Origin: Planctomycetaceae bacterium
GTDB lineage: Bacteria; Planctomycetota; MHYJ01; SBBU01
Direction: 5' to 3'
NCBI GenBank assembly: GCA_005239585.1
Contig: SBBU01000274.1
Coordinates: 1-7,272 of the forward strand
DNA length: 7,272 bases
Below the pieces are notes generated by a model, which did no database searches, was not told the origin of the DNA, and was given only the letters and a program-made list of their open reading frames with translations. Made by a program: the position numbers and the translations under genes. Positions 1 through 7,079 of this stretch are shown here, piece by piece (positions within the stretch are counted from its first letter, which is position 1; every line of letters begins with the position of its first letter).

Positions 1-2191
1 CAACGAAGGATTGTGGCAAGAAACTAAACTTGACCTCGCTATTGCCTGCCGGGATCTTCACAGCTTGAAACGCGAAATTTGCCCTTAAAACATCAGTTTC
101 CTTGCCATTCACCTGACATTGCCAGCCCGGATAAAATGTATTTGAAATAAAGAGAAGAGCCTCTTTGTTTGACTCTACTTTAATGTCAATCGAGTTCATT
201 GACTGTTTTAACTGTAGCAGGTTCCACTTTACATCCTGACTTGCAGGTTGGCCGGGATCTTTTTCTAATGCAACTAATTTGGACGGATCAAACTCGGAGC
301 TCTTCATGAACTTAATGAGCTCTTCATCACTTTTGCAGACTAGGAATGAACCTGTTACAAATACTCTTGGGAGGACTCCATCATTTTCATAGATTTTTAT
401 ACCATCTGATGAACTAATCTGCCTGAAACCTTGCAGTTCTTTTGATGTAATTATGTGCCTCACATTGAGCACGTCTAAAAATTTTGACTTGGTTGGCTCT
501 ACTGTGACCATTCTTGGGTCTTTTTCTATACCAAAAAACTCTTGGCAGAAATTGAAATAGCGTCTCACTCCAATGGCCTCATACCCTCCAATGTCCTCTT
601 TGCCAAAGAGAGCAATGGTATTTGCTGTGTGCCCCGTTACATCCTTGGGTACATTTGCCAGGGCCCTTCCTGAACTTGCCCACTTGACATATTCTGGTTG
701 ATTTGAGATTGGTTCATACATATGGTTGTAGCTCAAAAAGAGTGGCAGAAGGTCGCATAAGATGGCAGTGGCAAAAATAGTCTTGAAATATTTGCTCTTC
801 ACAAAATAAAGTACGGCTACAAGCCCCACGATTGCTAGCGCTTCATCGCGGAGTATCGAGTTGAGAGCAATGTCGTAGTTTCCTAATAGGTGTCTTGCTG
901 ACTGGACGAGTTTCCCCATCGATTTCGATTTTTCATAGTCCATAAATCCCATGAGGCGGAATGCAATAACTGATAGAGAAATGACCAGGAATAGAATCGT
1001 TGCTACAATCGCTGCTCTTTTGAGCTTTTTCATGTAAGCAGATGTGTCTTTGAAGAAATCTTGTGCTGCAAAGGCAAAAAGTATCGAGCCGCAAAATGAG
1101 AAAAGATATAGCCAGCGCGGTGCAATCAAATAACTGCCAATGGGAGTTCGCGAGGTAATGGGTTCCAGAAGAACAAGCAGTAGAGAGAACCCGGCAAAGT
1201 AATAAAAGAACTTGACTGATTTTAGGCGTTTGATGGCAAAAAGCACAAGCAAGAATGCCAAGAGTCCGAAGTAAAGTCTGTACTCCACGAGATTATTTCT
1301 GAGATTCAGGAATTCCTGTGGCTGATCGAGAGGTACACGATCACTTGGAGATGGGACGACCCTTGGGAAGAATAAACTTGGCAGGGTCAAAATGGCGTTC
1401 ATAAAAGAGATCTTTGTAGATTCAAGCGTTCTGCTGCCGTTCATTACAGTCTCGACCATTGGCAGCAATGTGACTGCTGCGGCGCCAACCGATGCAATGA
1501 GGAAAATGAAGGCATAGCGCAGGTTTGCGATTGCAGTGAAGATCAATAGAAAAATCATAACAAGTAGTGACATTTGCGGATGGCTCACAATTATGAGGAG
1601 TCCATTCACCGCTCCAGCAAGAAGGAGAAGCTTTATAGATCGCGCATCAAGTGCAAGCTTTAGTAAATAAAGACAGAGTGGCAGGAGACATGAGGTAGCA
1701 GGTATGTGCATCCATGCCAGCCAAGACCCGCTATAAGAGCAGAGTGTCCACGTGATGGCACCGAAAAATGCGCACCAGTGATCCAAATTAAACTTTGTGA
1801 GCAGTAGATGCATAAAGATCATGCCAAGCAGTAAATGAATCCAGATAAATAGCAGATAGGCAGTCTCGTTTGAAAATACATAATGCAAGATAAATTGCAG
1901 CGGATATACAGGTTCAATCATGGCAATATTGGAAGCGGGCTCGCCGCAGAATATAAAAGGATTCCAAAACATGAACTCGCCGTTCTTCAGCGCCTTGTTG
2001 TAATGTTCATTCGCCATGCAAAGCGTGAAAATGCAGTCAAAGTTGCGCGAGTGTTTGAGCTTGTCATATGTATCTACCTTGCCCTGCTCCAGCTCAAGCC
2101 AGTCAGTGGGGTAGGGCGTCTTGCCAAGCAGCGCATATCTTCCGCATATGAAGGCAGATAAAAGCAAGTAAACGAGGACAAATTTTCTCAT
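1..2191 (-). CDS. YfhO-family polytopic membrane protein, putative GT-C glycosyltransferase (3' end outside window)
   Basis: Reading the complement from the ATG at 2191-2189 gives 730 uninterrupted codons to the window edge; an in-frame TAA at 2209-2207 supports this start. A first membrane segment (residues about 3-22) is followed by an extracytoplasmic loop with Asp30 and the motif FWNPFIFCGEP (75-85). About ten more hydrophobic segments run to residue 487. A soluble C-terminal part contains GGYEAIGVRRYF (535-546), LNVRHIIT (575-582), YENDGVLPRVF (601-611), YPGWQCQVNGK (687-697) and IPAGNSEVKFSF (713-724). These match the YfhO family, whose members have a GT-C-like fold. Bacillus YfhO acts in lipoteichoic acid glycosylation with a polyprenyl-phosphate sugar donor; the substrate here is unknown. 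Because the final motif precedes the family's usual end, only a few to a few dozen residues are probably missing. No strong Shine-Dalgarno site is visible. Family is confident; enzymatic role is inferred. Confidence 0.88.
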   Translation of the reverse strand, partial: MRKFVLVYLLLSAFICGRYALLGKTPYPTDWLELEQGKVDTYDKLKHSRNFDCIFTLCMANEHYNKALKNGEFMFWNPFIFCGEPASNIAMIEPVYPLQFILHYVFSNETAYLLFIWIHLLLGMIFMHLLLTKFNLDHWCAFFGAITWTLCSYSGSWLAWMHIPATSCLLPLCLYLLKLALDARSIKLLLLAGAVNGLLIIVSHPQMSLLVMIFLLIFTAIANLRYAFIFLIASVGAAAVTLLPMVETVMNGSRTLESTKISFMNAILTLPSLFFPRVVPSPSDRVPLDQPQEFLNLRNNLVEYRLYFGLLAFLLVLFAIKRLKSVKFFYYFAGFSLLLVLLEPITSRTPIGSYLIAPRWLYLFSFCGSILFAFAAQDFFKDTSAYMKKLKRAAIVATILFLVISLSVIAFRLMGFMDYEKSKSMGKLVQSARHLLGNYDIALNSILRDEALAIVGLVAVLYFVKSKYFKTIFATAILCDLLPLFLSYNHMYEPISNQPEYVKWASSGRALANVPKDVTGHTANTIALFGKEDIGGYEAIGVRRYFNFCQEFFGIEKDPRMVTVEPTKSKFLDVLNVRHIITSKELQGFRQISSSDGIKIYENDGVLPRVFVTGSFLVCKSDEELIKFMKSSEFDPSKLVALEKDPGQPASQDVKWNLLQLKQSMNSIDIKVESNKEALLFISNTFYPGWQCQVNGKETDVLRANFAFQAVKIPAGNSEVKFSFLPQSFV

Positions 2192-2318: not shown

Positions 2319-5300
2319 ATGAAAGGGATCGTTCTTGTCGTTGTTATCTGGGTGCTGGCCCTTGTGTGGCTGCTGGCGGTTGTTTTCCTTATGGCTGCGA
2401 CTGCAGAGAGGTCGGTTTCGTCAAGTTACTATTTTGTATCCAGAGCAGAGTTTGCTGCAAGAAGTGGTGTCGAGTCGGCGGTTTCAAGGATCTATGAAAC
2501 AATCGAGCGCGGCTGGTTAAGGGGAGATGAGATTGATCAGAGTTGGAGATATGGAGAGAGTGTAACAACGCTGCTTGAGGATGCTCTAAAACCTTCATTT
2601 GCAGGAGAATCGATTAAGATAGGCTCAAAGCAGCAGCATATATCAGGGAAAACCTCTTCAGATGATGTCTTTAAGCTTAAAATTTCAGACACCCAAGGTC
2701 AGATAAATGTAAATGATGGAACAACCCTGCCAAAAGACCATGCTATGAACAAGACGCTAGTGAGAATTCTTAATACCCTTGGCAGACAAGTCGGGATTAC
2801 TAACATTCAACTTGGAGAGGAAACCCTCAAGAATAGACCATCAGGTGGATACCAGAACAAATACGAGCTTTTAAAGGCAGTGGGGGGGAAGATTGATCTA
2901 TTTAACCGCTTCAAGGATCATGTGACAACCAATTCATGGAAAAATCCTTCTGTTGCTATGCCTGTGCCCCTTTCAAGTCACGAGATAGCCAAGGGGAGCT
3001 ATCCGATTAGCTATAACAGGCCATGGGATGCAAAAGGTCCCATCTATCGATATGGAAATCATTCTTTTGAACCGTTAAACACTTATGCAAGGGTTTTTAG
3101 GGGTCTCACTGTTCAACCGCCATTTGTCATGTGTTTTCATCCTGATACAAAGTCGCTTGGGATAACAAGTTACGATGCACTCAATCCGCAGTGGATAGAG
3201 TTAGTAGAGCGGGCACCTGTGAATGTAAACACTGCCTCGAAAGAAGTGTTGACTTGTCTCATTGCAGGTCTTCAGGGTTTCTTCATAATGAATCCCAAAG
3301 TGGGTGAGCCTCGCAATATATTCTACTACTGGATGGGACATAAATATTTGTATCTTCCATCGACTCAGATGCAGTCGCAGATAGGATCGATATACATGAC
3401 ACAGCCATTTGTTGACGGATCAGATAACAACGCTCAAGGATTTCCTGCTCAGGCGATAGCAGACGAGATAATCGCATGCAGAACAAAGGCTGTCTCTCCA
3501 GTGAATATAGATTATGCTCAACTCCCATTCGGCGGACCCTTTAGGTCTTGGGCACAGTTCAACAAGTTTGTGGATTATCTTGTTGACAGAGGTGTCCTAA
3601 TTGACAATCGCAACATCTATTTTGATGAGGATTTTTCAAAGATTCAGTACACGCAGACTGTAATGCCAAAAAATTATGTAAAATTACCAGAGCCGTCGCT
3701 AACTATACCCTCTACTGCACAAAGGCGAATGGCCTCACAGGCAATGGCCGATGTACTCAAGGCAAATTTCAATCCCAATCTTCATCTGAACGAACTGAAT
3801 CAGAACAAGACACTCCACATGCTTGTAGACAAGACTGATTTGATTGTGAATTCTACAGAATTTTGCTTCCTGCCAATGGGATATTTTGAGATCGAGTCTC
3901 TGGGACTGGTTCTTTCGTCTGATGTGTCTGATCAGGATCATCAGATTATGGCCAGAAAGAAAATCAATACAATGGTCAAGTTGTACGATGTCTATTACGA
4001 ATCGGATCAAGCGAGATTTCACAGGGGTGAATTTGGAGATCGCAAGTCAGATCCGATGACCAATAACGGCAAGGCGGTTGAGACAGGTCCTGAGGTCGAT
4101 AATGGAAATGCCCCATTTGAGAACAATTACTCGGGTTATCTGGCTCTTAGCTCAAACTATGGTGGCCAGTCCCTGGCAAAAGGAGCCCTCTATACGACAC
4201 TTGCACCAAATATTATGACTGGTGCATTTCCAAATGCAGTCAGATCACCACCGGCTGTTAAGGAGCTCGATGCTAATATAGTTAGTCATTTTCGCTTTGA
4301 TCATGTTGCTAATTATCATTCAGATGGAATTGAACATTGCAAGCCAATAGGCCTGTTCCCGGGGAGTAGCGAGTGTGAAAAGAACTTCAAAGACAGGACA
4401 GAGGGAAGTCTATCCCCTTATTCATCAGTAAATGGTGAGAGATTCAGACTTTGCAGGACATACAAACATGGTGACGGGAAGCGCTTTTACTATTATTCTC
4501 CAAGCGATCTGCGAGTGGATGGGGCCTATTTTGAATTCAACTCTGCAATTGGATACAAGACTCCCTTTTTTAGAGACAGCTTTGTAGCGTCATTCTGGAT
4601 AAAACCAAACTTTTATCCTGAGCTTACTCCTAAGGTCAGGGCGTTTCTCTCTTTCTCTGATCTAACTTACTCTACCTATCCAAACAATTATTTCATGTGG
4701 CGAATAATTGATGTCGTCCCTTATATTACACCGTCATTCGGGCTCTTTTATTTCCCGAGCTACCATGGGTGGGAAGACCCGTGGAATATCGATGCTGGCA
4801 CATATAACAATAGGACACAGAATATAGCTCAGATTGTTTCAGCCTCCAAGGCACGGAGAAATTCGCTCGGGCTTTTTGGTTCCCTCACCTACAGAAAGGA
4901 TGCAAGCGGCAAAGTTAAATTTCTCCCTCTTGACTTGAGGGGTGGTCTCGGAACGATGACGCCTACTCTCAACCACAATTTTGAGACATACTGTGCAAAC
5001 CATCCTGCCAGCGGTAATTATTGTGGAAATCCAGGCGATGCCAACCATAAGTTCGAAACCAAATGGAGGCACGATAGATTCACTGGAGATGACGGCAGAC
5101 CCAATTTAATGAGGGATCACGAGTGGATGCACATTACCGTGGCAGGCAAGATCGGCGCCCCCAAAGAGCTTACTATACTCGTTAATGGAAAGGAACTGCC
5201 AAACACAGACCTAAGTAATATTCACATTCAGGACCTTGTATCTCTCAAGACAAGTCCGCTCTACATGCTAGATTTTTCAAAAATTCTAGGGAGCACGATA

Positions 5301-7079
5301 AGAATAGGGGGTGAATACGCATGGACTTGTGTGCCATCATTCAGATCTTACTTTGCTGATGCCACCATAGATGAATTCTACTTCTGGGCTGATAACTATG
5401 ATGTAGGCATAAACCGCTCCACTGAAATATTCAACAGCGGGCGCTACTACAGGTCGGTTGATTCAGATCCGACGGATGGCATCTTTACATCAGACACAAT
5501 AATTTTGCAAACCGGCAGAACTATGGCCAAACTTCCGGTTAGCCCGGAGGTTGTCGAGTCTGTATCAGCAAAGATCAAGATTCTCGGTCTAAACTGGACA
5601 TCCTACGCTGAAGACTATGAGAAAGGTACAAATTCAGAGGGCGGTCCAAGGCTAAAGCCAGTGATGTACAATTACAACAGTTTACCACAACAGAAGATGT
5701 CTCCGCAATATTTGCAGGATGCTAACGGGTATTTATCAGATAGCATATGCGAAGTATCTATAATTCATGGTTCTAAAAGGTTAGGGCCATTCAGGAATGA
5801 GTTTTTCAGCAACACGTCTAATCTCTACTTAGATGAATCAAGGCAGATTAAATATCAATTAAAATTCAGGACGGGTATCCAAAATCCGACAGGAACAGCT
5901 CTCTTGGCAACACCTATTTTTGATGATATTACAGTATTCTTCAGTCGTGGCGGTGCAGAATATCTCAGCTGTGTTGATCTTGAAGGACCTATGCCCATCG
6001 AAATTGGAAACCCGGGTTTTGTGCGACCCCCAATACCCCCGCCGCCTGGCATCGATAACCAGCCTCCAATCGCTCTACCAATTAGTCCGTCGAATAATAC
6101 AACACTTGAGCTTACTACCTCAGGAAATGTTACGCAGGAGTATAAAGTTAAAGTTACTGATTCAAACAACAATGCAAGCGGTGTGACATGGTTTCTAAAT
6201 GGTGTGCCAAAGGGTACAGATTATTTCACGACACCCGATGGTGGTGATAACACAAGACCATTCGCGTTTACAACTCCAGGCGATTACAAAATAGTAGCTG
6301 TACCTGTTGACAAGGAGAATCAGACAGGTCCTCCTGTTACATTTATTACGACCATAAAACCGCCTCCATGGGGAGGTGGCGGTGGTGGAGATGATTTCTT
6401 TGGAAATCCTATAACAGCAGAAAACATTATATTTCTTATCGATATGTCAGGTTCAATGTATGAGGGGCTTTCAGGGTATCAACCTGACCTGGAACTGGCC
6501 AAAAAGCTTGGCATAACGCTCAAGAAGGATTGGCAAGGACTCTACACCAAATGGGAGGTCCTGAAATTCGAGATAAAAAAAGCCCTCAAGTTATCGACAA
6601 AATTAAAGATGTTTAATATTGTCTACTTTGATCATGACTATGGGGGCATGAACTCAAAGCTAATTGAATTAAATGATACATCAATGAATCAGGCGTTTAA
6701 TCTCTTGAACGTCCTTTATCCACGAGGCGCGACAAATATATATGATTCAACTGCCCTTGCACTCAATATTATGAGGGATCAAAAGGCTACGTTGCAGGGT
6801 GAAATAGCGATCTACCTGCTTTCTGATGGCATGCCAAATACAAGGCTCATTAACCCTAAGATAATTAATAATGCAGATGGTGGCTTTCTGTATACTCGCG
6901 ACCCCGCGAATCCTAATAGTAAGTATGTTTCTCTTGAAAATTCTGCAAACGTTGTTAAAGAGCTCACAAAGCTAAATCAAGACATCAAAATTAAGATCAA
7001 CACGATCGCTATCCCAGGTAGCCTGTTCATGCGATCCATTTCCGAAAATAACTGGGGGGTGTACAAATCCATACCTTAG
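2319..7079 (+). CDS. GspK/PilX-like minor pseudopilin fused to LamG-like, Ig-like and vWA domains; putative pilus/pseudopilus tip adhesin
   Basis: The 1586-residue product begins MKG|IVLVVV, a three-residue type III (prepilin) leader with Gly at -1, then a hydrophobic helix to about residue 28. Residues 4-565 resemble GspK: DTQGQINVNDG (124-134), APVNVNTASKEVL (299-311) and CFLPMGYFEIESLG (516-529). Mature position 5 is Val, not Glu, as in GspK. Residues about 650-1045 form a LamG/concanavalin-like domain (VASFWIKP at 756-763, LTILVNGKEL at 951-960, TIDEFYFW at 1016-1023). A further beta-rich module ends in PIFDDITVFF (1199-1208). A Pro-rich linker (1237-1244), an Ig/PKD-like module (about 1246-1346) and a Gly6 linker (1352-1357) lead to a vWA domain (1367-1586) with MIDAS residues D1375, S1377, S1379, T1472 and D1503. 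Canonical GspK is about 330 residues. The vWA domain ends at the stop codon. No secretion partner genes lie in the window, so pilus or type II system membership is inferred. Confidence 0.85.
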   Translation: MKGIVLVVVIWVLALVWLLAVVFLMAATAERSVSSSYYFVSRAEFAARSGVESAVSRIYETIERGWLRGDEIDQSWRYGESVTTLLEDALKPSFAGESIKIGSKQQHISGKTSSDDVFKLKISDTQGQINVNDGTTLPKDHAMNKTLVRILNTLGRQVGITNIQLGEETLKNRPSGGYQNKYELLKAVGGKIDLFNRFKDHVTTNSWKNPSVAMPVPLSSHEIAKGSYPISYNRPWDAKGPIYRYGNHSFEPLNTYARVFRGLTVQPPFVMCFHPDTKSLGITSYDALNPQWIELVERAPVNVNTASKEVLTCLIAGLQGFFIMNPKVGEPRNIFYYWMGHKYLYLPSTQMQSQIGSIYMTQPFVDGSDNNAQGFPAQAIADEIIACRTKAVSPVNIDYAQLPFGGPFRSWAQFNKFVDYLVDRGVLIDNRNIYFDEDFSKIQYTQTVMPKNYVKLPEPSLTIPSTAQRRMASQAMADVLKANFNPNLHLNELNQNKTLHMLVDKTDLIVNSTEFCFLPMGYFEIESLGLVLSSDVSDQDHQIMARKKINTMVKLYDVYYESDQARFHRGEFGDRKSDPMTNNGKAVETGPEVDNGNAPFENNYSGYLALSSNYGGQSLAKGALYTTLAPNIMTGAFPNAVRSPPAVKELDANIVSHFRFDHVANYHSDGIEHCKPIGLFPGSSECEKNFKDRTEGSLSPYSSVNGERFRLCRTYKHGDGKRFYYYSPSDLRVDGAYFEFNSAIGYKTPFFRDSFVASFWIKPNFYPELTPKVRAFLSFSDLTYSTYPNNYFMWRIIDVVPYITPSFGLFYFPSYHGWEDPWNIDAGTYNNRTQNIAQIVSASKARRNSLGLFGSLTYRKDASGKVKFLPLDLRGGLGTMTPTLNHNFETYCANHPASGNYCGNPGDANHKFETKWRHDRFTGDDGRPNLMRDHEWMHITVAGKIGAPKELTILVNGKELPNTDLSNIHIQDLVSLKTSPLYMLDFSKILGSTIRIGGEYAWTCVPSFRSYFADATIDEFYFWADNYDVGINRSTEIFNSGRYYRSVDSDPTDGIFTSDTIILQTGRTMAKLPVSPEVVESVSAKIKILGLNWTSYAEDYEKGTNSEGGPRLKPVMYNYNSLPQQKMSPQYLQDANGYLSDSICEVSIIHGSKRLGPFRNEFFSNTSNLYLDESRQIKYQLKFRTGIQNPTGTALLATPIFDDITVFFSRGGAEYLSCVDLEGPMPIEIGNPGFVRPPIPPPPGIDNQPPIALPISPSNNTTLELTTSGNVTQEYKVKVTDSNNNASGVTWFLNGVPKGTDYFTTPDGGDNTRPFAFTTPGDYKIVAVPVDKENQTGPPVTFITTIKPPPWGGGGGGDDFFGNPITAENIIFLIDMSGSMYEGLSGYQPDLELAKKLGITLKKDWQGLYTKWEVLKFEIKKALKLSTKLKMFNIVYFDHDYGGMNSKLIELNDTSMNQAFNLLNVLYPRGATNIYDSTALALNIMRDQKATLQGEIAIYLLSDGMPNTRLINPKIINNADGGFLYTRDPANPNSKYVSLENSANVVKELTKLNQDIKIKINTIAIPGSLFMRSISENNWGVYKSIP

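Follow-up and report, generated by a model that had tools for sequence, protein, structure and literature searches.

Gene content of the window

The window, i.e., the whole stretch of 7,272 nucleotides from a Planctomycetaceae bacterium (contig SBBU01000274.1) that was analysed here, holds one very long gene and part of a second one on the opposite strand. The features to which the text refers are the following:

2319..7079, forward: giant K-type pilin gene; 1586 amino acids in one intact frame
2319..2327, forward: three-residue prepilin-type leader MKG, with predicted cleavage
2328..2495, forward: hydrophobic N-terminal helix region, residues 4-59, without Glu at +5; aligns with the N-terminus of TIGR02600
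2496..3923, forward: GspK-type head, including stretches specific to the family, residues 60-535, from profile matches and alignments; limits approximate
3216..3236, forward: PVNVNTA motif, residues 300-306, the beginning of the Pfam T2SSK match
3759..3779, forward: KANFNPN signature of the family, residues 481-487, with little or no variation in the alignments
4500..5408, forward: LamG-like (concanavalin-type) region, taken as the slice of residues 728-1030
5496..5984, forward: conserved C-terminal module of the core, residues 1060-1222, ending in ..LLATPIFDDITVFF.., where the other alignment rows stop
5985..6383, forward: linker and spacer rich in Pro, residues 1223-1355, of Ig-like appearance by eye (BiPBP_C at E 0.054, below cut-off)
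6384..7076, forward: vWA module, residues 1356-1586, from the VWA_2 profile, BLAST and alignments
6441..6455, forward: DxSxS of the MIDAS (D1375, S1377, S1379), from alignments and residues assigned by eye
6732-6734 and 6825-6827, forward: T1472 and D1503, completing the MIDAS
2..2191, reverse: divergent YfhO-like membrane protein gene, truncated by the window edge (PF09586, E 9e-15)

Because the nearest in-frame stop upstream of the giant ORF ends at 2309, this frame offers no ATG earlier than that at 2319, and the leader consists of MKG. No connection between the YfhO-like gene and the giant was seen. Among the ORFs of the window, which covers no more than 2.3 kb on the upstream side and 0.2 kb on the downstream side of the gene, no GspG/H/I/J-type pseudopilin was recognised by eye. 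Searches of plasmids and phages gave nothing at E 1e-5, and viral contigs gave no pattern match.

Pilin start and GspK-type head

K subunits of type IV filament systems typically lack the Glu at position +5 that ordinary pilins generally possess. The giant protein starts with MKG followed, after the predicted cleavage site, by IVLVVVIWVLALVWLLAVVFLM, a class III-type prepilin start with Val at +5; the leaders of its relatives P0003 (MKKG) and P0021 (MRG) are equally short. A recognisable class III site is present in 79 of the 92 family members, the window protein included, and none of these has Glu at +5 (V in 42, I in 23, L in 9, T in 2, and F, N, and M in one each; the site-finding script probably placed the cleavage site of P0002 one residue early). 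Escherichia coli GspK, which was inspected alongside, likewise lacks this residue.

The NCBIfam model for GspK (NF037980) matches the window protein at E 6e-8, with its best stretch at residues 284-318, although the score of 32.6 bits misses the equivalog threshold of 130 bits; the GspK model also matches 17 of the 20 family members that were scanned (set A1). Profile-profile alignment with hhalign of residues 1-600 of the giants (13-row family alignment) with canonical GspK (28 proteins picked from 102 GspK hits) gave a probability of 97.7% (E 2.2e-12, 175 aligned columns), against 0.1% for residues 600-1222 and 2.9% for a reversed profile as negative controls. Removal of the first 59 residues lowers the match to 28.8% (E 6e-4), and much of the GspK score, therefore, sits in the N-terminal helix. 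Past the helix, the resemblance to GspK as judged from these profiles is one at motif level. When a 59-row family profile was compared with the sequences in the PDB, GspK of a type II system (5vtm_X) was the sole match at E ≤5 (E 0.044, with no single stretch significant alone). According to this profile, the motifs D..GR.N.N and then APxNVNTAS occur in the giants in the order of the GspK family, whereas a third matched stretch, RP..GY..K..L, precedes NVNTA in the giants and follows it in GspK. The profile aligns the R..GF.s...F element of GspK to this stretch; by eye, R388..PFRSWAQF is found after NVNTA.

The N_methyl family (IPR012902) was matched neither by the window protein nor by the 20 scanned members, and PilX_N matches nine members of set A1 and not the window protein. 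In the alignment, P0002 and P0003 possess approximately 200 extra residues (about 250-470) before PVNVNTA, which are missing in the window protein. The first-pass annotation of this DNA had described a prepilin leader, a hydrophobic helix and GspK-type motifs; a K-type pilin start and the GspK motifs are supported by the present analysis.

LamG-like region and remainder of the core

The LamG-like segment of the window protein itself has no Pfam match. In an aligned sample of 19 segments, i.e., that of the window and 18 of the 37 other giant-locus segments, Laminin_G_3 was matched by ten with E values of at most 0.05 (lowest 7.9e-6), Laminin_G_2 by two, and Pentaxin by one. Of whole proteins, three of the 20 in set A1 matched Laminin_G_3, and P0024 yielded a LamG match of 24.8 bits, under the threshold of 27.6. 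The LamG profile gave two matches among the PDB sequences (E 1 and 1.1), which were taken as chance. The LamG-like identity of residues 728-1030 is thus one read from the family; the LamG-like domain of the earlier annotation holds at that level, but was not recovered by Pfam from the segment of the window. Further downstream, residues 1231-1365 have P0002 as their sole match among the 91 other family proteins.

The vWA tail

VWA_2 matches residues 1370-1504 of the window protein at E 0.0042 with 18.1 bits, which is less than the cut-off of 27; P0003 scores above the cut-off (38.5 bits) and P0002 below it. The five residues D1375, S1377, S1379, T1472, and D1503 fit the MIDAS motif. According to BLAST and profile searches, the tail occurs in three of the 92 family proteins, i.e., the window protein, P0002, and P0003, and in none of the other 89. 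P0002 and P0003 share 57 and 56% identity, respectively, with the window protein (best local alignment) and both keep the entire domain order, P0003 even with two tandem vWA copies (residues 1491-1697 and 1712-1916), so that this order is not due to chance. The three proteins are 62-67% identical in their core and their MIDAS residues are intact. The vWA domain that had been noticed at the outset is supported by the profile match, the MIDAS residues and the score of P0003, and the proposed search for homologues with the same domain order has yielded these two proteins. Within this set of 92, the vWA is a rare add-on, and the vWA-less core (residues 1-1222) is the unit that constitutes the family.

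The closest relatives of the fused vWA outside the family are proteins combining HEAT repeats with a vWA (P0093, L081). With the tail alone as query, a search covering proteins of about 200-630 amino acids gave one match, a HEAT-vWA protein of 503 amino acids.

Distribution of the family and of the assembly machinery

The 91 homologues were found by scoring the 7990 candidates that shared most words with the query and were close to it in length. Scanning of genome contigs yielded 76 giant loci. Planctomycete-titled records account for 70, to which Candidatus Uabimicrobium, a member of the same group, is to be added; two others carry the labels Nitrospinota and Proteobacteria, and three are called simply bacterium. 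Each of the 30 genomes that were searched again matches the giant profile, as expected from their selection. Of 294 genomes of the phylum Planctomycetota (that of G013), 91 contain a match to the core profile at E 1e-15 or better, with two candidates scored per genome and many matches covering part of the profile; 26 of these 91 were carriers already known. Several giants are found in some genomes (e.g., G002 and G005), and the JAHFOU01 metagenome-assembled genome (MAG; G009, assembly of approximately 2.5 Mb) possesses 55 giant ORFs in 34 loci (L015, L016, and L022 among them), with up to four per locus. The FNPN motif is present in 46 of these ORFs, which total 51,677 residues or approximately 155 kb between stops, some being contig-end fragments. 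The sole vWA ORF in the 34 loci (L055, 5702-6322, reverse) lies at the end of its locus, away from the giant match at 156-425. At L034 (9874-12353), a giant-like match extends across ORFs that overlap one another, which may reflect a broken gene or an error in sequencing. In the titles and abstract starts listed from the open-licence literature on planctomycete pseudopilins and pilins, modular pilins, and the Verru_Chthon cassette, the giant family is unnamed.

The first-pass annotation had stated that lack of a prepilin peptidase and an assembly ATPase would refute its reading. The A24 prepilin peptidase and PF00437 (T2SSE) were both found in 13 out of 13 carrier genomes of relatives, and T2SSF and a secretin each in nine out of nine. 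PF00437 was also present in all 14 control genomes and is, therefore, by itself a weak and unspecific marker. PF05567, the C-terminal beta-propeller of PilY1, was matched in none of the 13 and none of the 294 genomes, but in no control genome either, so that no absence of PilY1 is claimed; it has no match in the window protein.

vWA genes beside the giants

A tBLASTn search with the tail against 88 loci located vWA genes in L023, L024, L025, L028, L039, and L057, besides eight loci that had been fetched for their vWA. In all of these six except L057, small vWA proteins with starts resembling signal peptides (by eye) are encoded directly upstream of the giant. The vWA profile detected a vWA gene in nine of 40 giant loci, which had been selected by score among the matches listed and represent 37 genomes; in eight it lies directly upstream on the same strand, with the two matches about 190-500 nt apart; L124 has three vWA genes at 1.6-2.6 kb from the giant. 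The control set, 20 stretches totalling 394 kb on contigs from 11 of these genomes, contains six vWA genes, all in longer ORFs of 480-595 codons. The other 31 loci lack a vWA gene by this profile, including L144, which falls inside the clade with vWA neighbours. Of the nine loci with a vWA gene, six had already been identified (L124, L127, L128, L129, L130, and L155 correspond to L057, L025, L024, L039, L023, and L028, respectively) and the vWA model was built in part from these six, so that the count is not independent of the discovery; the new ones are L139, L148, and, weakly, L157 (E 2e-10). A Poisson estimate (0.46 expected, eight seen) was set aside, as it ignores both this overlap and shared ancestry. 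In L128, two tandem small vWA genes (5202-5762 and 4096-4662) lie upstream of one giant. The idea that the window protein unites roles that are divided among separate subunits elsewhere finds support in the eight loci with a separate vWA gene directly upstream.

A different clade has other neighbours: a RecA-like ORF (by eye) adjoins the giant in 19 of the 40 loci, and 18 loci encode, beside the giant, either one or two proteins of approximately 340 residues that are related to each other. In L131, L132, L136, and L142 the order is RecA, giant, two of the ~340-residue proteins and a PurD-like gene on the opposite strand. The downstream proteins start like signal peptides (by eye), and the three that were scanned gave no Pfam identity. 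An ORF with a GFTLxE-type prepilin start was found by regular expression in none of the 40 giant loci, within flanks of at most 6 kb and less where a contig ended, versus three of the 20 controls.

Two ways of coupling a vWA to a giant

A quick, midpoint-rooted tree of 132 giants was built from profile-column rows; it has some long branches, and its RecA label, borne by 13 rows, does not always mark a locus with a RecA-like gene. In this tree the three fused proteins cluster together, with a support of 100, within the branch of the window protein. The nine loci with a neighbouring vWA gene are found in a distant part of the tree, in one group with a weak support of 63 that also includes L144, with no vWA match in its stretch, L156, with little upstream sequence, and P0087. 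Starred branches separate the two groups from each other, and core identity between them is 21-25%, with values down to 30% within the neighbour group. With a three-sequence model of the HEAT-vWA proteins, the fused vWAs reach 81-101 bits, versus 22-33 bits for the window protein and both copies of P0003 with a four-sequence model of the small neighbours (P0002 is unlisted there), so that the two couplings used vWAs of different types. Because the types differ and the groups are widely separated in the tree, it is probable that the coupling arose twice, once by fusion and once by gene neighbourhood. This same partnership, reached by fusion in one clade and through a neighbouring gene in another, is the strongest new point of our analysis.

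Role of the giant proteins

From sequence alone, the protein is to be regarded as a real, conserved, and modular K-type pilin. The rarity of the vWA, the presence of several giants per genome, and the lack of a GFTLxE-type pilin ORF in their flanks argue against a plain GspK/PilX subunit that belongs to a single operon. Of the initial description as a GspK/PilX tip pseudopilin fused to adhesion modules, the K-type start and the GspK motifs stand; no GFTLxE-type pilin ORF was seen in the flanks of the 40 giants, however, and the vWA belongs to three proteins rather than to the family.

Our preferred interpretation, to which we assign a probability of roughly 0.6, is that Planctomycetota possess in this protein a giant and modular minor pilin of the K type (GspK/PilX-like), which presents binding modules at the filament end, with tip adhesion as its likeliest role. 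The prepilin peptidase would remove MKG, and the N-terminal helix would serve as the inner-membrane anchor; a type IV filament machine, with its genes at other places in the genome, would put the protein at the end of the filament. There it would present its LamG-like region and, in the lineage of the window, the appended vWA with a putative metal-binding site, and these modules may bind glycan or protein surfaces. In the distant clade the same pairing would be achieved by the separate vWA protein encoded next door, which would presumably interact with the giant in the manner of PilY1 and tip pilins or CofJ and CofB. The tip location, export, and ligand of the giant are what we infer, and the 55 giant ORFs of one MAG, which exceed the need for single tip subunits, count against such a role. 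On the opposing side there are also the fall of the GspK match once the helix is removed, the different position of the third matched stretch, the flanks devoid of a GFTLxE-type pilin ORF, the 31 giant loci in which no vWA gene was seen, and the weakness of PF00437 as a marker.

The main competitor, which we consider unlikely although it is the best of the alternatives, takes the prepilin leader as a membrane-targeting signal only, with the giants staying in the inner membrane as anchored binding proteins that never enter a filament. The heavy paralogy in 34 loci of a single MAG and the flanks devoid of a GFTLxE-type pilin ORF fit this explanation, and the expanded SBP_bac_10 proteins of Planctomycetales may be such a case. 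In Tuwongella, 91 proteins combine a prepilin motif with SBP_bac_10, and the 25 of them identified were, in the available part of that report, mostly from the detergent-soluble fractions S2 and S3 (PMC8567305). A mere targeting signal leaves unexplained, however, that the head possesses GspK motifs beyond the leader and that Glu at +5 is missing as in K subunits. It seems improbable, and more so than membrane anchoring, that the giant is a type II secretion pseudopilin recruiting substrates, whose LamG-like region and vWA bind secreted enzymes instead of external surfaces: its resemblance to GspK and the secretins in all nine genomes would agree with this, but GFTLxE-type pseudopilin ORFs are lacking nearby and the giant is far bigger than canonical GspK of about 330 amino acids. 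A chimera, assembly fault, or decaying fusion would account for the rarity of the tail, but can hardly apply to a tail that is kept with an intact MIDAS in three proteins of such divergence, in one of them in two copies.

A bolder reading, to which we give somewhat less than even odds, is that Planctomycetota own a widespread tip-adhesin system of giant LamG-bearing K-type pilins, in which the vWA, in the role of PilY1, comes from a neighbouring gene in one clade and was independently fused into the pilin in the lineage of the window, and in which multiple giants serve as exchangeable tips on one shared filament machine. The tip-adhesin interpretation, if true, would provide a concrete candidate for the adhesin of planctomycete type IV filaments and a natural experiment in the coupling of tip pilins and vWAs, with a gene pair in one clade and a fusion in the other.

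Comparison with known systems

The vWA of PilY1 is separately encoded and is displayed at the pilus tip by minor pilins. The loci with a neighbouring vWA gene resemble this arrangement; the window protein differs by lacking a PF05567 match. The Verru_Chthon cassette protein A (TIGR02600) is of similar size and aligns over its N-terminal 57 positions, and its model matches 14 of the 20 members of set A1 (best E 3.9e-6). However, the window protein scores 16.8 bits versus a cut-off of 332, and the match stops at residue 59. An expansion of prepilin-motif proteins has been described in Planctomycetales, as far as the available part of the paper goes (PMC8567305).

With the K-type minor pseudopilins GspK and PilX the giants share the prepilin start without Glu at +5 and the succession of D..G.INVN and PVNVNTA. 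They differ by a core of approximately 1220 residues plus tail versus about 330, by the absence of a GFTLxE-type pilin ORF beside the 40 giants, and by a score far under the GspK equivalog cut-off. In the portion of PMC8179133 available to us, GspK is proposed to be located at the tip of T2SS pseudopili and CofB is described as an adapter for the secreted CofJ.

Pilins that bear a vWA or a lectin module have already been described (PilB, PilC, and CpaL). In CpaL of Caulobacter, a pilin-like module is joined to a vWA that contains a MIDAS and ends at residue 626, and the protein has been proposed to be located at the tip of the Tad pilus; GspK motifs and LamG are unmentioned for CpaL in the accessible text (PMC12607857). 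PilB (a vWA with MIDAS) and PilC (a concanavalin-type lectin) of Streptococcus sanguinis are modular pilins that are proposed to be at the tip and both have Glu at +5, according to the parts of the two papers at hand (PMC8179133, PMC9934059). Modular pilins combine a pilin start with a domain not specific to type IV pili; the window protein possesses such a domain in its vWA and, at the family level, in its LamG-like region. The survey of modular pilins, as presented in the available part of PMC8179133, was keyed on IPR012902 and comprises more than 1,200 proteins; if our interpretation is correct, a survey keyed in this way on N_methyl misses K-type pilins with very large grafted modules. Judged from the same partial sources, the giant thus shares with PilB and PilC the grafting of a binding module on a pilin, the vWA with MIDAS, and the concanavalin-type module, but where the monoderm host divides these between two subunits with Glu at +5, the giant is one K-type protein that unites both kinds of module.
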